A DNA stretch of 6,002 nt from a bacterium (GTDB lineage Bacteria > DYJV01 > JALVYZ01): NCBI GenBank assembly GCA_027037705.1, contig JALVYZ010000453.1, positions 1 through 6,002 of the forward strand, in the 5' to 3' direction. Numbering within the stretch: position 1 is the first letter of the stretch; each line of letters begins with the position of its first letter. A program made the translations under genes and the position numbers. Below are positions 1 to 6,002 of the stretch, piece after piece. The notes under the pieces are model-generated. The model was given only the letters and a program-made list of their open reading frames with translations. It was not told where the DNA came from and ran no database searches.

Positions 1-416
1 TTAAGATCAAGAACTTGCTGGCCTTTTTGGGTAACAAGAAAACCATCTTTATTAACGGTAAAATTTCCATTTCTTGTATATTTAATTTCTCCATTAGCTT
101 CTTTAACCATAAAAAAGCCTTTTCCAGCTATAGCAAAATCAAATTTATTTCCAGTATGCTTTAAATATCCTTCTGAGAAGTCTATTTTTGTTACATCTGT
201 GTAGGGAAAAGTATTAAATGAGCCATTTTTTATATTTTCTGGAAGTGTTTCTTTATATTTATTTTCTTCTTTATCTAATGGTAACATTGATGCAAATGTT
301 ATATTTTGTTTTTTGAAGCCTGTAGTATTAACATTTGCTAAATTGTTTGCGATTGTGTCGAACTTTTTTTGAAAAGCTAATGCGCCAGCTGTAATTGTAT
401 AAATTGCATGGTTCAT
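1..416 (-). CDS. flgF: Flagellar basal-body rod protein, FlgF-like (3' part beyond window)
   Basis: This is the N-terminal 138 codons of a rod/hook family protein; the frame is open to the window edge. Rod proteins are exported through the flagellar type III apparatus and form the periplasmic axle. Residues 1-35 match the family signature: an AGAL segment, then IANNLANVNTTGFK (22-35), the conserved N-terminal helix used in axial packing. A second block follows at residues 82-128: EGYLKHTGN, DFAIAGKGFF, YTRNGNF and DGFLVT. The opening MNHAIY..TAGAL and the DFAIAGKGFF block fit FlgF better than FlgG, but the C-terminus is not visible, so FlgG or another FlgE/F/G paralogue is possible. The ATG at 416 is supported by a near-perfect Shine-Dalgarno AAGGAGGT at 428-421. 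It lies on the same strand as lysC but 206 bp further on, with its own sigma-54 promoter, so it probably starts a separate flagellar transcription unit. Confidence 0.88.
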   Translation of the reverse strand, partial: MNHAIYTITAGALAFQKKFDTIANNLANVNTTGFKKQNITFASMLPLDKEENKYKETLPENIKNGSFNTFPYTDVTKIDFSEGYLKHTGNKFDFAIAGKGFFMVKEANGEIKYTRNGNFTVNKDGFLVTQKGQQVLDL

Positions 417-440
417 TGTTACCTCCTTGTAAAATAGAGA

Positions 441-456
441 AGCAATGGATGTGCCA
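441..456 (-). promoter_or_regulatory. Sigma-54 (RpoN) -24/-12 promoter of flgF
   Basis: On the minus strand the sequence reads TGGCAC-ATCCA-TTGCT. This matches the sigma-54 consensus (TGGCAC-N5-TTGCW) at every defined position, with exactly 10 nt between the GG and GC dinucleotides. Counting the C of GC (442) as -12 puts +1 at about 430. That would give a leader of roughly 14 nt that begins just 2 nt before the Shine-Dalgarno sequence. Sigma-54 control of middle flagellar genes is established in several diderm groups, with an NtrC-type activator (FlgR, FlrC, FleQ/FleR). The use of such an activator here is inferred. Confidence 0.85.
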
Positions 457-519
457 AAATAAATAAAGCATTTTTATAGGTTTTTAGAGAAAAATTAGAT
501 TGGATATAAGTGAAAGAGC

Positions 520-531
520 TGTGATTTCACA
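520..531. promoter_or_regulatory. Palindrome TGTGATTTCACA, candidate activator site
   Basis: Two perfect 5-bp inverted arms (TGTGA and TCACA) flank a 2-bp centre. It lies about 90-101 bp upstream of the start site predicted from the sigma-54 promoter, a usual distance range for the enhancer of a sigma-54 activator. The sequence does not match the NtrC consensus, and the arms are too close together for a CRP site (which needs N6). A functional role is an inference from symmetry and position. Confidence 0.35.
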
Positions 532-568
532 CTATTATATATTTTTTTAAAAATAAAATAATGATAAA

Positions 569-588
569 TCAAAATGTTTACATTTTGA
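569..588 (-). terminator. Weak hairpin after lysC (possible terminator or operator)
   Basis: Perfect 9-bp arms (TCAAAATGT and ACATTTTGA) flank a 2-bp centre, which an RNA could fold as an 8-bp stem with a 4-nt loop. It begins about 35 bp past the lysC stop and is followed on the minus strand by a T-rich stretch. The stem holds only two G-C pairs, so it would be a poor intrinsic terminator. A protein-binding palindrome upstream of flgF (about -140 to -158) is an equally good reading. Confidence 0.3.
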
Positions 589-622
589 CTATAAATTTTT
601 TTGTCCAAAAAATTGACATTAA

Positions 623-1102
623 TTATTTATCTAATTCAAATGCGTCATGTAAAACTCTGACAGCAAGTTCTGTATATTTTTCATCAATAATACATGATAC
701 TTTTATTTCTGAAGTGCTAATCATCTGTATATTAATATTTTCTTTTGCTAATGCTTCAAACATTTTTGCTGCAACTCCTGAATGGCTTCTCATCCCAACT
801 CCTATTATTGAAACTTTTGAAATATTTTCATCTCCCACCACATCTTCAGCACCAATATCTTTTGCTATCTCTTTTACTAAATCCATAGCTTTTTTAAAAT
901 CATTTTTAGTAACAGTAAAAGTTAAATCAGTTGATTTTCCATCTTCAGAGATATTTTGGACAATCATATCAACGCTTATATTTTCATCTGCAATCTTACC
1001 AAATATTTTTGCTGCAATTCCAGGTTTATCTGGTACTTTAATTATAGAAATTTTTGCTTGATTTTTATCATAAGCTATTCCTGTTACAACAGGTTGTTCC
1101 AT
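623..1102 (-). other. Internal translation start: aspartokinase beta subunit
   Basis: An in-frame ATG at 1102 (Met247) lies exactly at the join between the kinase domain and the ACT domains. It is preceded by AAAGAGGAGG at 1117-1108, a strong Shine-Dalgarno with 5 nt to the ATG, as good as that of any gene in the window. The product would be 159 residues holding both ACT domains. In Bacillus subtilis aspartokinase II and in Corynebacterium, the same arrangement makes an alpha2beta2 enzyme from one gene. The codons also spell Lys-Glu-Glu-Glu-Ile, so the purine tract could partly reflect protein constraint. Confidence 0.72.
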
Positions 1103-1840
1103 GATTTCCTCCTCTTTACATACAATTGTTCCTTCTTCGTCTTTAAATGAACTTCTAACTTGAAGTTTTATATTATACTTTTGAGCAAATTCAACTGATC
1201 TTAAATGTAAGACCTTTGCTCCAAGAGATGCATATTCCAACATCTCTTCATAAGAAATTTTCTTGATTTTTTTAGCCTTTGGACACACATTAGGATCAGT
1301 TGTGTAAACTCCGTCAACATCAGTGTAAATATCACATCTATCTGCGTTTAAAGCAGCTGCTATTGCTACTGCAGTAGTATCTGAACCGCCTCTGCCAAGT
1401 GTTGTAATATTTCCTTCCCTATCTATTCCCTGAAATCCTGCTACCACAACAATATTCCCCTCATTAAGAGCTTTTTGAATATTGTCAGGTTCTATTTCAG
1501 TAATTCTTGCTTTTGTAAATACTCCATCTGTATAGATTGGAATTTGAAAACCTAAAAATGATTTAGCTTTATATCCCATTTTTATTAATGTCATAGCAAG
1601 AAGGGCAATACTAACCTGTTCCCCAGTTGAAACTAATACATCCATTTCTCTTTCAAATGGCAGTTCATCTACCTGTTTTGCAAGATTAATTAATCTATCT
1701 GTTTCTCCTGCCATTGCTGACACCACAACAATAACTTGATTTCCATTTTTTACTTCTTTGATTACTTTATTAGCAACATTGGCAATTCTTTCAATTGTTC
1801 CAACTGATGTCCCGCCAAATTTTTGAACAATTAAAGCCAT
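623..1840 (-). CDS. lysC: Aspartate kinase, two ACT domains
   Basis: This 405-residue enzyme phosphorylates L-aspartate with ATP, the first step of the pathway to lysine, threonine, methionine and diaminopimelate. The catalytic amino-acid kinase domain occupies about residues 1-245. It shows KFGGTS (7-12), the FQIPIYTDG region (98-106), GRGGSDTTA (149-157) and [11 protein letters not shown] (173-183). Two ACT regulatory domains follow: one near 263-330 ([17 protein letters not shown]) and one near 342-405 ([19 protein letters not shown]). Length and layout match the monofunctional, feedback-regulated class found in Bacillus and many other bacteria. The ATG at 1840 has a ribosome site AGAGGTG at 1852-1846 and lies 2 nt after the tsaE stop, making lysC the last gene of the operon. 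No lysine riboswitch or leader peptide is visible, since the gene follows tsaE directly. A second start inside the gene is described separately. Confidence 0.96.
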
Positions 1841-1842
1841 TT

Positions 1843-2277
1843 TTACACCTCTCTTAATTCAATCTCTCTCCATTCAGGATTGTTATCAACAAATTTAAAC
1901 TTAATTAAATAATATTTATCTGGTACACATTCAGGAATTCTATCTATCCATTCAACCACTATTATAGCATCTTTATCAAAGAAAAAATCCTTATATCCTA
2001 TTTCTTCAAGTTCATCAATAGAATTTAATCTATACAAATCAAAATGATAAACTTTAAAAGTTTTTGTATCATATTCGTTTAAAATAGTAAAAGTTGGGCT
2101 AACAACATCATTAATATTTCCATCAAGATTCTTTACTAAAAATTTTGTAAATTGAGTTTTACCAGCTCCCAAATCACCAATTAGGCCAATAAACATTCCA
2201 CCATAGCATCTTTGTGCTATATTTTTTGACAAATTTTCAAGTTCTTTTAAGTTTTTTATAATTATTTTATGAATCAT
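1843..2277 (-). CDS. tsaE: tRNA t6A37 biosynthesis ATPase TsaE
   Basis: TsaE (formerly YjeE) is a small cytoplasmic P-loop ATPase. It works with TsaB and TsaD to place threonylcarbamoyl on adenosine 37 of ANN-decoding tRNAs. Counted from the ATG at 2277 (144 residues), the Walker A motif GDLGAGKT is at 34-41, SPTF of the switch region at 60-63, HFDLYR at 78-83 and VEW at 108-110, all in the usual family order. Length is normal for the family. The start is uncertain: a GTG at 2283 lies two codons further upstream in the same frame, and neither has a good ribosome site (only AGTGG close to the ATG). Either start overlaps the end of nnr, by 11 or 17 nt, so translation is probably coupled to nnr. 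TsaE next to nnr is a common bacterial arrangement. Confidence 0.94.
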
Positions 2278-3808
2278 TACCACTTTTTATAATTTTAAAA
2301 CTGTAATGTAAATTTTCAATTAGATCATTTGCTATAACTGTGTCAGAGCAAAATTTTTCAGAACAAATTTCACCTGTTAAACCATGTAAATATACTCCAA
2401 GGATAGAACTTTCAATTGAATTATATTTTTGTGCTAAAAATGATAAAATCATGCCACCAAGAACATCGCCAGAGCCACCTTTACTAAGAGCATCATTGCC
2501 TTTTGGGCAAATATATGATTTTTCTCCATCTGTAATTACTGTTCTAAATCCTTTTAAAACAACTACACAATTATACTCTTTAGCAAAATTTTTTGCTGTT
2601 TCAAGTCTATTGTTTTGAATATCCTGTTTTGACAATTTTGATAATCTTGAAAATTCTCCTGGATGTGGGGTAATAATCTTTGGAATATTTATTTTATTTA
2701 AAATATTTAAATCTTCATTTGCAATTATATTTAAAGCATCAGCATCCAAGATAACAGGAATTTCAAGTTTTTCAAGAAGTTCATATAAGAAATTTGTTGC
2801 ATCATTTGAAGTCCCTAAACCTGGACCTATTAAAATTGCACTTTTTGAATTTATAAATTTTAATAAATCTTCTAAATCATAAAATCTTTTTATATTAAAT
2901 GGATGGCTCATTGCTTCTGGTAAACTTGCTTCAAAAATTTCATTTATCTCTTGTGGTATAATTGCTGTTACAAGCCCACTTCCACATCTTAGACATGCTT
3001 TTGATGCTAAGATTACAGCTCCTGAAAATCCTATACTACCACCTAAAATAAGAGCATGACCAAATCTTCCTTTATGACCATCTATTGGTCTTGGTTTATA
3101 AATATTTTTTACAATTTCTATATCGATTTCAAAGTCATTAATTTCAAAAGGTAAATTTTGAGGTATAGAAATATCAATAAGTTTAACATCTCCACAATAC
3201 AAAACACCTGGATAAGTTGATAATCCTATCTTTTTTAAACCAAATGTGTAAGTTGTATTAGCTTTTATGCATGTTCCGAGTGGAATTCCTCTTTCAGAGC
3301 ATAGCCCAGACGGAATATCAATTGCAATTTTAATGGCATTATAATCGTTTATTGCTTCAATAATTATTTTGTAAAAGTCTTTTATTTCTGAGTTTAAACC
3401 TGTCCCTAAAATTCCATCAAATACATAGTTAAAGGTATTATTTTTCAAAAATTTATTAAATTCGTTAGCATCTGTAACTTCAATAATGTCTATATTAAAA
3501 TTTTTTGCTACATTATAATTTATTAAAGCATCACCTTTTAAGTTTTTAGCCTCAGTTAAAAGGACAATTTTAACATTCTTAAATCCATTATTTACTAAAT
3601 ATCTTGCAATTACAAATCCATCTCCACCATTATTCCCTTTTCCGCAGACAATGAGAAATTTATCATCTTTTTCAGGTGAATAATCTTCTAAAAAATGTAA
3701 AAATGCTCCTTTCCCTGCATTCTCCATTAAAACTGCACCAGGAATACCAATTTCATTTATTGTGTATTTATCTATTTGAGCCATTAACTTTCCTGGGACT
3801 AATTTCAT
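2267..3808 (-). CDS. nnr: Bifunctional NAD(P)HX epimerase / ADP-dependent NAD(P)HX dehydratase
   Basis: This 513-residue fusion repairs hydrated NADH and NADPH. The N-terminal YjeF_N epimerase (about 1-225) interconverts R and S hydrates: MENAGKG (28-34), CGKGNNGGDGFVIARYL (55-71), DGILGTG (131-137) and AIDIPSG (162-168) are visible. The C-terminal ribokinase-like dehydratase (about 240-505) uses ADP to restore the coenzyme: GHKGRFGHALILGGS (244-258), GPGLGTS (328-334), LDADALN (354-360), TPHPGEFSRL (380-389) and GGSGDVLGG (444-452), where Asp448 would be the catalytic base. The loop before this motif reads GNDALSK, where NP.MA..G is more usual. The ATG at 3808 has AGGAG at 3820-3816 with 7 nt spacing and lies 2 nt after the yggT stop. 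The full two-domain length indicates an intact fusion. Older annotations call it YjeF or 'carbohydrate kinase'. Confidence 0.96.
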   Translation of the reverse strand: MKLVPGKLMAQIDKYTINEIGIPGAVLMENAGKGAFLHFLEDYSPEKDDKFLIVCGKGNNGGDGFVIARYLVNNGFKNVKIVLLTEAKNLKGDALINYNVAKNFNIDIIEVTDANEFNKFLKNNTFNYVFDGILGTGLNSEIKDFYKIIIEAINDYNAIKIAIDIPSGLCSERGIPLGTCIKANTTYTFGLKKIGLSTYPGVLYCGDVKLIDISIPQNLPFEINDFEIDIEIVKNIYKPRPIDGHKGRFGHALILGGSIGFSGAVILASKACLRCGSGLVTAIIPQEINEIFEASLPEAMSHPFNIKRFYDLEDLLKFINSKSAILIGPGLGTSNDATNFLYELLEKLEIPVILDADALNIIANEDLNILNKINIPKIITPHPGEFSRLSKLSKQDIQNNRLETAKNFAKEYNCVVVLKGFRTVITDGEKSYICPKGNDALSKGGSGDVLGGMILSFLAQKYNSIESSILGVYLHGLTGEICSEKFCSDTVIANDLIENLHYSFKIIKSGNDS

Positions 3809-3810
3809 TT

Positions 3811-4137
3811 TTATGCTCCTAATTTGCTTGAAATTATTATTTTAAATGCTAATTGCTTTAATGATGTAACGAGAAAAATTTGTAAAAAGTAGATTATTAA
3901 AATTACAATAATAGGTGAAAAATCTATACCAAAACTAAAAAAAGAAGATGGTAACATCCTTCTTACACGGTATAAAACAGGATCTGTAATCCTATATAAA
4001 AATTGAACAATTGGATTATATGGATCAGGATTTACCCATGAAATTAATGCTCTTATGATTATTATCCACATATATATGGTTAAAATATAATCTAAAATCA
4101 CTGCCACAGCATTTAAAAAATTTCCTATTATAAACAT
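3811..4137 (-). CDS. YggT family membrane protein
   Basis: A 108-residue inner-membrane protein of the YGGT family (PF02325), whose molecular role is poorly defined. YggT relatives have been linked to osmotic or ionic stress tolerance, and some have a role in cell or plastid division. Two hydrophobic helices are seen, about residues 8-28 and 71-91. They flank the family signature RALISWVNPDPYNP (29-42) followed by the segment ITDPVLYRVRRMLP (50-63). A single-copy, two-helix form of this length is typical. The ATG at 4137 has an excellent ribosome site, AAGGAGG at 4150-4144 with 6 nt spacing. It is the first gene of the minus-strand operon, with nnr starting 2 nt after its stop. The family is often found near core housekeeping genes, so its place here fits but does not reveal its job. 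Confidence 0.92.
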   Translation of the reverse strand: MFIIGNFLNAVAVILDYILTIYMWIIIIRALISWVNPDPYNPIVQFLYRITDPVLYRVRRMLPSSFFSFGIDFSPIIVILIIYFLQIFLVTSLKQLAFKIIISSKLGA

Positions 4138-4161
4138 AAATAACCTCCTTTTTATTTGTTA

Positions 4162-4217
4162 ATGCGTAAATGCGTATATGTGTTTATGAGTTTATACGTC
4201 AATTAGAATATACTGTA
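4162..4217 (+). repeat. Degenerate 8-bp repeat array, left (plus orientation)
   Basis: Read in steps of eight from 4162, the plus strand gives ATGCGTAA, ATGCGTAT, ATGTGTTT, ATGAGTTT and ATACGTCA, then two faded units (ATTAGAAT, ATACTGTA). The first four share ATG and a GT at positions 5-6. The array starts 11 bp upstream of the yggT ribosome site. It does not encode a supported reading frame. Its origin is unknown to me; a decayed tandem array or the end of a small mobile element are possibilities. Confidence 0.6.
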
Positions 4218-4226
4218 TCTTTTTCT

Positions 4227-4298
4227 TTTCGCATCCACCCATTTACGCTTTTTCATATTTATATAATTTAACATCTTCGCATTATCGCTTCTACACAT
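4227..4298 (-). repeat. Degenerate 8-bp repeat array, right (minus orientation)
   Basis: On the minus strand from 4298 down to 4227, nine octamers keep one phase: ATGTGTAG, AAGCGATA, ATGCGAAG, ATGTTAAA, TTATATAA, ATATGAAA, AAGCGTAA, ATGGGTGG, ATGCGAAA. Six or seven resemble the left-array consensus ATGCGTAA; the two in the middle are eroded. On the plus strand, ACATCTTC recurs at 4271 and 4295, exactly 24 bp apart. The two arrays therefore form one inverted structure, with GCGTAAATG at 4164-4172 on the plus strand and the same nine bases at 4248-4240 on the minus strand. Confidence 0.6.
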
Positions 4299-4363
4299 CT
4301 TCTATAAATACATTAGTTTTTCATTTTCATTGAAAAATTTTATTCTATTAATTTCAAGATGTC

Positions 4364-4392
4364 TTATTATCTCTAATTAACTTATTTTTCAA
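4364..4392 (-). promoter_or_regulatory. Candidate sigma-70-type promoter of the yggT-nnr-tsaE-lysC operon
   Basis: Minus strand: TTGAAA (4392-4387) as -35, then 17 bp, then TAATAA (4369-4364) as -10; the alternative -10 GATAAT (4371-4366) leaves a 15-bp spacer. The predicted start near 4357 gives a leader of about 220 nt that contains both octamer arrays. In DNA this rich in A+T such matches arise easily by chance, so this is only a candidate. Confidence 0.35.
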
Positions 4393-4404
4393 CCTTTTTA
4401 TTAA

Positions 4405-4410
4405 TATAAT
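4405..4410 (+). promoter_or_regulatory. Candidate -10 box (TATAAT) for the metallopeptidase gene
   Basis: A perfect TATAAT lies 41 bp before the ATG at 4451. No convincing -35 is found at 16-18 bp upstream (the bases there read TTATTT or similar), and there is no TGn extension. Position is right for a promoter divergent from that of yggT. Together with the arrays and the yggT promoter this accounts for most of the gene-free stretch 4138-4450; the rest is plain A+T-rich sequence. Confidence 0.35.
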
Positions 4411-4450
4411 AATCTTGTTGGAATAATAAAGATGTGGTAAAGATTTGGCA

Positions 4451-5122
4451 ATGGAAAAAAGATTAAATATAAATGGCCTGGAAGTTTTATTAAAAAGAAA
4501 AAATATAAAAAATATTTATCTAAGGGTTACTTCACCAGATTGTAGAGTAAAAGTTTCAGCTCCTTATTATGTTTCATATGAATTTATTGAAACATTTGTA
4601 AAAAAGAAATTTAACTGGATTATAAGAGAAATTGAAAAAATAAATTCTAAAAAACTAAAATTTGTAAATGGAGAATTTATTAATTTAAAAGGTGAAAAAT
4701 TTAAAATGTTAGTAAAACATTCTAATAAGCCAAGAATTGAAAAGAATGGAAAAGAAATTATCTTTTATTTTCCAGATTCATACAATTACGATAAGAAAAT
4801 AAAATTTTTAGATAAATGGTTAAAAAAAGATATGGAAAAAGAAGTTAAAATTTTAATTGATAAATGGGAAAATATTACAAAAATAAAATTAAATGAAGTT
4901 AAAATTAGAAAAATGAGAACTAAATGGGGAGTTTGTAACATTGTAAAAAAGAAAATAACTTTAAATTTAGAATTAATTAAAAAGCCATTAATATGTCTTG
5001 AATATGTAATTGTTCATGAATTTGTCCATTTCTTTGAAAAAAGGCATAATCAAAACTTCTATAAAAAATTATCTGATTTTTTTCCTCATTGGAGAGAAGC
5101 AGAAAGGTTGATTAAATGTTAA
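4451..5122 (+). CDS. YgjP-like (DUF45) zinc metallopeptidase
   Basis: A 223-residue protein of the YgjP/DUF45 family (PF01863, COG1451), predicted cytoplasmic zinc metallopeptidases related to SprT/WLM proteases. The zinc site is clear: HEFVH at residues 189-193 supplies two histidines and the catalytic glutamate, and His199 in EKRHNQNF is the probable third ligand. The N-terminal half has the usual family opening, with LKRKNIKNIYLRV near 14-26, and RTKWGVCN at 156-163 corresponds to the family's R-WGSC block, with Val in place of Ser. The end FFPHWREAERLI is also typical. No signal peptide is seen. Substrates are unknown; in some organisms homologues sit beside type I restriction genes, which are not present here. 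I prefer the ATG at 4451; a TTG two codons earlier is possible, and neither has a good ribosome site. The gene is lysine-rich and visibly poorer in G+C than the minus-strand operon. Confidence 0.9.
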   Translation: MEKRLNINGLEVLLKRKNIKNIYLRVTSPDCRVKVSAPYYVSYEFIETFVKKKFNWIIREIEKINSKKLKFVNGEFINLKGEKFKMLVKHSNKPRIEKNGKEIIFYFPDSYNYDKKIKFLDKWLKKDMEKEVKILIDKWENITKIKLNEVKIRKMRTKWGVCNIVKKKITLNLELIKKPLICLEYVIVHEFVHFFEKRHNQNFYKKLSDFFPHWREAERLIKC

Positions 5123-6002
5123 TTAAATGTAAAGGTTTCTTTGACATAAAATCAAAGAAATTAGTCAGAAATTGTTTTATTAAATGGAATGGGAAGTACT
5201 TTGAAATGTTAAATAGTTGTAACTATTACGATAAAATAGCTAATTATTTAATCCCTTCATTTTGTGATGCTCATGTTCATCTTTTTTTAAGTGGAGATAA
5301 AGATTTAGTTAAAAGGGAAAAAGAATTAAGTTTGAGTTTAGATGAAGGTTTAAAAATTGCAGAAAAAAATGTGAAAAAACTAATGGATTTTGGTGTATAT
5401 TCTGTTATTGATGCTGGAGATAGTAAATTATGTGCTCTTACTTTAAGAGATAGCAGAAGATTTGAAAATTTTAGAATAAAAACATCAGGAAAAGCATTAT
5501 TTAAAAAAGGGAGATATGGAAGTTTTATTGGATATGAAATTACAGATTTTTCATCATTAAAATATGCATTAAATGATCTATTAAATAAAAAAATTGATAT
5601 TATAAAAGTTTTGAATTCAGGAATCAATTCAGTTAAAGAATATGGCAAAGAGACTGAACCTCAATTTTCTTTAAAGGAAATGGATTATATTGTGAAATTT
5701 GCAGAAGATAATAATTTAGATATAATTGTCCATGTTAATGGATATTTAGCAATTAAGGAGACTGTAAAACATAATGTTAATAGACTTGAACATGCTTTTT
5801 TTATAAAAGATGATTTTTTAATAAAAGATATAGCACAAAGAGGAATTAAAATTGTTCCAACATTTAGAGCTATGTATAATTTAATAGAGAATAAACAATT
5901 TTCTAAAAAAGAAAAAGAAATAATTAAAAAAACAGTTATTAATCATACTGAAGAAATAAAAAAATTTATTAAATATGGAGGAAAAGTTTTATTAGGAACA
6001 GA
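5116..6002 (+). CDS. Amidohydrolase, imidazolonepropionase-like (3' end beyond window)
   Basis: An open frame of 295 codons runs off the right edge. It belongs to the metal-dependent amidohydrolase superfamily (PF01979), nearest in motifs to the COG1228 imidazolonepropionase-like group. The HxH metal pair is in PSFCDAHVH (47-55). Lys164 in DIIKVLNSG lies where the carbamylated or metal-near lysine is expected. His206 (IIVHVNG) and His226 (RLEHAF) fit the next metal ligands, and GGKVLLGT(D) at the edge matches the final aspartate block. Residues 1-46 form the small N-terminal part that leads into the barrel. The substrate cannot be told: relatives hydrolyse cyclic amides, dipeptides or phosphotriesters. 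The ATG at 5116 overlaps the metallopeptidase stop by 7 nt, and AAAGG at 5103-5107 is a fair ribosome site, so the two are probably co-translated. Hydantoinase or prolidase-like activities remain possible. Confidence 0.85.
   Translation, partial: MLIKCKGFFDIKSKKLVRNCFIKWNGKYFEMLNSCNYYDKIANYLIPSFCDAHVHLFLSGDKDLVKREKELSLSLDEGLKIAEKNVKKLMDFGVYSVIDAGDSKLCALTLRDSRRFENFRIKTSGKALFKKGRYGSFIGYEITDFSSLKYALNDLLNKKIDIIKVLNSGINSVKEYGKETEPQFSLKEMDYIVKFAEDNNLDIIVHVNGYLAIKETVKHNVNRLEHAFFIKDDFLIKDIAQRGIKIVPTFRAMYNLIENKQFSKKEKEIIKKTVINHTEEIKKFIKYGGKVLLGT

Follow-up and report, generated by a model that had tools for sequence, protein, structure and literature searches.

A dispersed intergenic repeat element with inverted octamer-array ends upstream of yggT

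Introduction

What are the two inverted arrays of degenerate octamers that separate a yggT gene from its divergent neighbor, and what process could have put them there? The window analyzed here (the whole stretch of 6,002 nucleotides, positions 1–6002) carries flgE/F/G-like genes (partial), aspartokinase, tsaE, NAD(P)H-hydrate epimerase/dehydratase, yggT, and a divergent ygjP-like metallopeptidase gene, in that order, and neither its GC content (∼27%) nor its genes suggest a cyanobacterium. Short degenerate tandem repeats have been seen in cyanobacteria, Xanthomonas, and Beggiatoaceae, with no agreement on their origin or role; those of heterocystous cyanobacteria are called short tandemly repeated repetitive sequences (STRRs). 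A preliminary description of the window proposed a decayed mobile or replication-slippage element, a binding platform, or a folded leader RNA upstream of yggT.

Results

Period 8 at the yggT locus

Both arrays were recovered where they had been described, with ATGCGTAA starting at position 4162. Also recovered were a 9-bp inverted match (GCGTAAATG at 4164–4172, reverse complement at 4240–4248) and a direct repeat of ACATCTTC at 4271 and 4295, both of which follow from a period of 8, the 24 bp between the latter being three units. Autocorrelation at lag 8 across 4162–4298 gave an identity of 0.535 as compared to a shuffle mean of 0.304 (z = 5.9), a value reached by none of 1000 dinucleotide shuffles, while, of the lags from 3 to 12, only lag 8 stood out after correction. 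Identity at lag 8 was higher in the left array than in the right (Table 1). TRF detected period 8 at 4158–4199 (5.2 copies), with a score of 35 that is modest taken alone. Dozens of genomic sites carry similar arrays, so that the observation was confirmed: the periodicity lies above the shuffled level, and the arrays are not confined to this locus.

Table 1. Coordinates of the repeat element and neighboring features in the window
Feature	Position	Strand	Evidence
yggT, gene downstream of this copy	3811..4137	-	Pfam YGGT, E = 1.2e-23
Shine-Dalgarno-like AGGAGG of yggT	4145..4150	-	Read directly from the sequence
3′ arm (left array), inverted array, plus strand ATGCGTAA ATGCGTAT ATGTGTTT ATGAGTTT	4158..4193	+	TRF period 8; lag-8 identity 0.73, z = 5.8
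Conserved nonrepetitive core, sense strand GATACAGTATATTCTAATTGACGTATAAAC here, GTATGAAC in consensus	4190..4225	-	Eight genomic copies, always in downstream-gene sense
5′ arm (right array) on yggT sense strand, ATGCG-type octamers, dialect ATGCGAAG/AAGCGTAG/ATGCGAAA	4226..4302	-	Lag-8 identity 0.57, z = 4.4
ygjP-like metallopeptidase gene, divergent neighbor, ∼140 bp from the element	4445..5122	+	Pfam YgjP-like, E = 1.9e-50

A family of cored copies with one orientation to the downstream gene

A search of the organism's own genome (query 4130–4450; 2.05 Mb, 496 contigs, 93% complete) returned 61 matches, the best with 86% identity over ∼147 bp (E = 5.5e-44). What lies upstream of yggT is a single member of a repeat family, an intergenic element with inverted octamer-array ends that is dispersed in at least eight copies, this locus included; the same core was found at seven other places, one of which (C475) is more diverged. 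Chance periodicity in AT-rich intergenic DNA would be consistent with the modest TRF score at this locus alone, but it is refuted by the shuffles, none of which reached the lag-8 signal, and by recurrence of the element at the E-value just given, and we regard it as vanishingly improbable.

The layout is asymmetric. A 5′ array of ATGCG-type octamers leads into a conserved core of ∼35 bp. In the sense of the downstream gene the core reads GATACAGTATATTCTAATTGACGTATGAAC; a 3′ inverted array (CGCAT…) follows it. The core aligns in all eight copies. In most of them the arms can be matched octamer for octamer as well, ATAATTTA and other odd units included, and the alignment gaps between copies are 8 nt long. 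Because the copies match in these respects, the element appears to have been copied as a whole and then resized by whole units. The same alignment bears on the right array, which had been read as nine free-running octamers. Its inversion and its period of 8 stand; however, it contains inherited irregular units (e.g., ATAATTTA at 4263–4270) that are common to other copies, as seen in unit-by-unit alignment of the 5′ arm with C357, C305a/b, and C338. Since these units are held in common, the right array is best read, from the alignment, as a conserved element arm.

Core orientation relative to the downstream gene was identical in every copy with a readable neighbor, and the copy at a contig edge (C394) agreed as judged by gene-start sequence. 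At the yggT locus, the 3′ arm stops ∼8–10 bases ahead of the Shine-Dalgarno sequence. The genes downstream of the copies, identified by eye from translations except for yggT, resemble yggT, mazG, a SurA-like gene, ilvD, livH, livM, and dctQ. No common theme was found among them, and a shared regulon was rejected since they are unrelated. A promoter or terminator reading was likewise rejected: the promoter search returned six promoter-like sites against 3.9 ± 2.0 expected, and no terminator. TTGACG-like letters do lie within the core, and a matching −10 was inconsistent among copies as judged by eye.

Multiple intergenic copies with a conserved core and inverted arms of fixed polarity would also be expected of a REPIN- or MITE-like mobile element moved by a transposase acting in trans. 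The dispersed inverted pairs at many sites resemble REP/REPIN sequences in this respect, but here the arms are tandem arrays rather than palindromes of 20 to 40 bp. A Y1/RAYT transposase was not found in the 93% complete assembly (no match to PF01797 [Y1_Tnp, RAYT], in a search that was positive in five control genomes), nor was an RVT_1 reverse transcriptase, and involvement of either enzyme was rejected. The element was not matched in plasmids, phages, or IMG/VR, so a plasmid, phage, or viral origin was rejected as well, and random insertion would not give a fixed orientation to genes. A REPIN- or MITE-like element is thus quite unlikely. Of the proposed decayed mobile or replication-slippage element, what holds is the dispersed multicopy character and the in-phase gain and loss of whole units, while no mobility protein was found.

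Position-specific conservation in the octamer unit

To the extent that the unit repeats outside this locus, its spacing is strict. Across the whole genome, ATGCG pairs within 17 bp were all exactly 8 or 16 bp apart among the matches listed (∼100 of 148), and there were 87 ATGCGTNNATGCG sites. In a 356-kb sample, which is enriched for array loci and gives no unbiased density, successive distances of 8, 16, 24, and 32 bp were observed for 82, 23, 8, and 1 pairs after masking of the element copies, none being off phase; control permutations of the ATGCG word gave a median of 0. In an unbiased subset (∼105 kb readable), no array remained after the composition filter.

In-between units without an exact ATGCG had 1, 8, 1, 29, and 1 mismatches in columns 1 to 5. 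Column 4 therefore takes 29 of 40 departures, and columns 1, 3, and 5 hardly any, from which the unit is read as ATGNGTNN, with positions 1, 3, and 5 nearly fixed and positions 4, 7, and 8 free. Spacer bases vary, and spacer length is constant. Mismatches this specific to position would not be expected if slipped copies had decayed uniformly.

This pattern is consistent with a binding platform, in which a protein would recognize ATGNG at 8-bp intervals in DNA or RNA, with selection preserving spacing and contact positions and letting the others drift. Such a word-reading protein would account for the fixed positions: positions 1, 3, and 5 are nearly invariant with position 4 free, spacing is fixed over free spacer bases, and the arrays are oriented relative to genes. 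The same idea has been put forward for TAACTGA repeats (MacGregor 2015, PMC4679880). However, no candidate protein was identified, the target genes share no functional class, and ∼10 words with different periods in this genome would require as many readers, making the binding platform unlikely.

Intergenic placement and invariant polarity

Ninety-nine of 109 word pairs (∼90%) lay outside ORFs, with genes called by ORF length and small contigs masked (N). Where neighboring arrays were opposed, the order was 5′-ATGCG…CGCAT-3′ in 22 of 22 cases, 15 of which lie outside the cored copies (p = 6e-5), though copies related by descent mean that these counts are not fully independent. The two arms also differ in dialect, the stop-side arm using ATGCGAAG/ATGCGTAG/ATGCGAAA and the start-side arm ATGCGTAA/TAT/TTA/TGG.

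Such polarity could be produced by templated end-addition, whereby a telomerase-like enzyme would extend intergenic DNA ends with G-type words and joining of the ends would yield head-to-head arrays like telomere fusions. In addition to the 22 of 22 polarity, the G-type words point inward from gene edges, and the positional variation resembles sloppy templating. Yet the 93% complete assembly lacks a match to RVT_1, several distinct words would require several templates, and the eight copies descend from one cored element rather than from separate origins; we consider templated end-addition highly improbable.

Pairing between the arms

Inverted arms could instead fold into a leader hairpin that controls expression of the downstream gene, as in the proposed folded leader RNA upstream of yggT. 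The arms are complementary word by word, they keep a single orientation to the downstream gene, and folds of single copies exceed those of shuffles modestly (z = −1.9 and −2.7). Cognate arms, however, paired no better than noncognate arms (p = 0.99 for stronger pairing): in a duplex test cognate pairing was the weaker, and orienting the arms by gene direction still gave no cognate advantage. The difference in spacer dialect between arms, an unsupportive consensus covariation term (+0.55), and the unrelated genes downstream also argue against a leader function. With no cognate-arm advantage and no covariation, a hairpin selected for pairing was rejected, and maintenance of an RNA stem does not account for the inverted layout. 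A known RNA family was rejected as well, the window being without an Rfam match. The folded leader, whose fold is moderately better than that of shuffles, is thus not supported, and a regulatory hairpin is improbable.

Other words and elements in the same genome

Degenerate arrays with units of 6 to 10 bp occupy many of this genome's intergenic regions, and the element is part of this broader set. Each of the other intergenic words has one main period of 6, 7, or 10, mostly 7: GGAGT, GAAGG, GTGAA, TGAAT, TTCGT, and GGCTA have period 7, GTTAG and GTTAT period 10, and GTGTT period 6. Between codirectional gene pairs, sense-strand bias was observed for GAAGG (13:1), GGAGT (16:3), GTTAG (13:0), and GTGAA (6:0), and antisense-strand bias for GTTAT (0:8) and TTCGT (0:5). 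A further cored family, GTCAGCCGAGCACCTAAAA, has four near-exact copies and one with three mismatches.

Two additional arrangements were observed. A second dispersed intergenic element, GTCAGCCGAGCACCTAAAACTTTAGGTGCTCGG, forms a strong hairpin amid GAAGG and GGAGT arrays (C282:726, C359:4559, C461:439, C103:2075, and C285:7432) and may be a terminator-like repeat. A third cored arrangement, at C413:677–690 and C285:8144–8157, consists of GGCTATA arrays, AAATAATTAAATCC, and inverted TAGCC arrays, with the flanks conserved too.

Occurrence in other genomes

The element was absent from the only same-order genome compared. The comparison covered 110 foreign loci with ATGCGTNN runs, of which 28 were degenerate and three had a CGCAT pair nearby, always downstream; inverted ATGCG/CGCAT pairs were therefore rejected as a general pattern elsewhere. 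The closest foreign parallel was locus L144 (HyVt-354), a degenerate ATGCGTNN array with a downstream inverted CGCATNN array of period 7. Of 290 genomes, 205 had no GGAGT arrays with short spacers, and a few unrelated ones had them in abundance. Five genomes from other families (G105, G171, G089, G141, and G098) are rich in degenerate GGAGT arrays, some of period 8 (GGAGTTNG) rather than 7. Cyanobacterial, planctomycete, and other loci examined carry their own degenerate arrays of 7 to 9 bp, those examined in Nostoc and Calothrix being 7-bp arrays of the STRR type.

Discussion

The closest kind of repeat known comprises the cyanobacterial STRRs and the heptamer repeats of Xanthomonas, Nostoc, and Beggiatoaceae. 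The preliminary description knew of no named element with this form; the class turns out to be a known one, while the exact element is not described in the literature searched. As in STRR and heptamer repeats, short degenerate units form head-to-tail arrays, many per genome and mostly intergenic. In contrast, the unit here is 8 rather than 7, no G-quadruplex is formed, a conserved core links the arms, with which it forms a single dispersed element, many words occur per genome, and the inverted polarity is invariant. For the heptamers GGGAATC and GGGGA(C/T)T of Xanthomonas and Nostoc, the G-type word lies on the coding strand just past stop codons and on the noncoding strand just ahead of start codons, G-quadruplexes have been considered, and Nostoc has few paired inverted repeats (PMC4692102). 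The arrays described here follow the same strand and position rule at gene edges. Because ATGNGTNN, GTTAT, and TTCGT are without the needed G-runs, that rule calls for an explanation other than G-quadruplexes.

TAACTGA direct repeats are found in marine Beggiatoaceae, Cyanobacteria, and Bacteroidetes, in forward orientation and with indels in 7-nt steps (MacGregor 2015, PMC4679880). They too are short intergenic arrays oriented to the downstream gene, near start codons, patchy across phyla, and differing in length by whole units. The element differs from them in its word, ATGNGTNN, and in its period; moreover, TAACTGA units are mostly exact and have neither an inverted partner array nor a core, and the element departs from all three of these features.

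Taken together, we consider it probable that the arrays were born by slippage, that the whole element was dispersed, and that it persists only between genes and in one orientation to the downstream gene. The period and phase of the arrays are directly observed; for the changes in their length we infer slippage, in which in-register slippage or unequal exchange would add or remove whole units, resizing that would hold the phase at 8. Homology among multiple copies, irregular units included, is observed as well, and copying would be the process of spread, with complete arm-core-arm elements carried to other intergenic sites by recombination or a putative mobilizing activity. Finally, polarity and orientation are fixed and placement is intergenic; selection may be the cause of the orientation, with arrays persisting only where harmless, between genes, and this element only in one orientation.

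Pure slippage with neutral decay does not predict the position-specific conservation or the fixed polarity. A vocabulary of words with their own periods, conserved positions, and gene-edge polarity raises a more speculative and rather doubtful prospect, namely that intergenic DNA, here and in a few lineages unrelated to this one, owes its writing or its upkeep to a process that is directional and guided by sequence, such as templated DNA addition or a family of readers. If true, this would be a directional process for intergenic DNA beyond slippage or G-quadruplexes.

In this genome, the same placement rule is seen with words unable to form G-quadruplexes, with a free position inside a conserved word, and with traceable cored copies. 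These features separate three questions, namely how units are added, how the element spreads, and what causes its fixed orientation, each of which is testable by comparison of strains.
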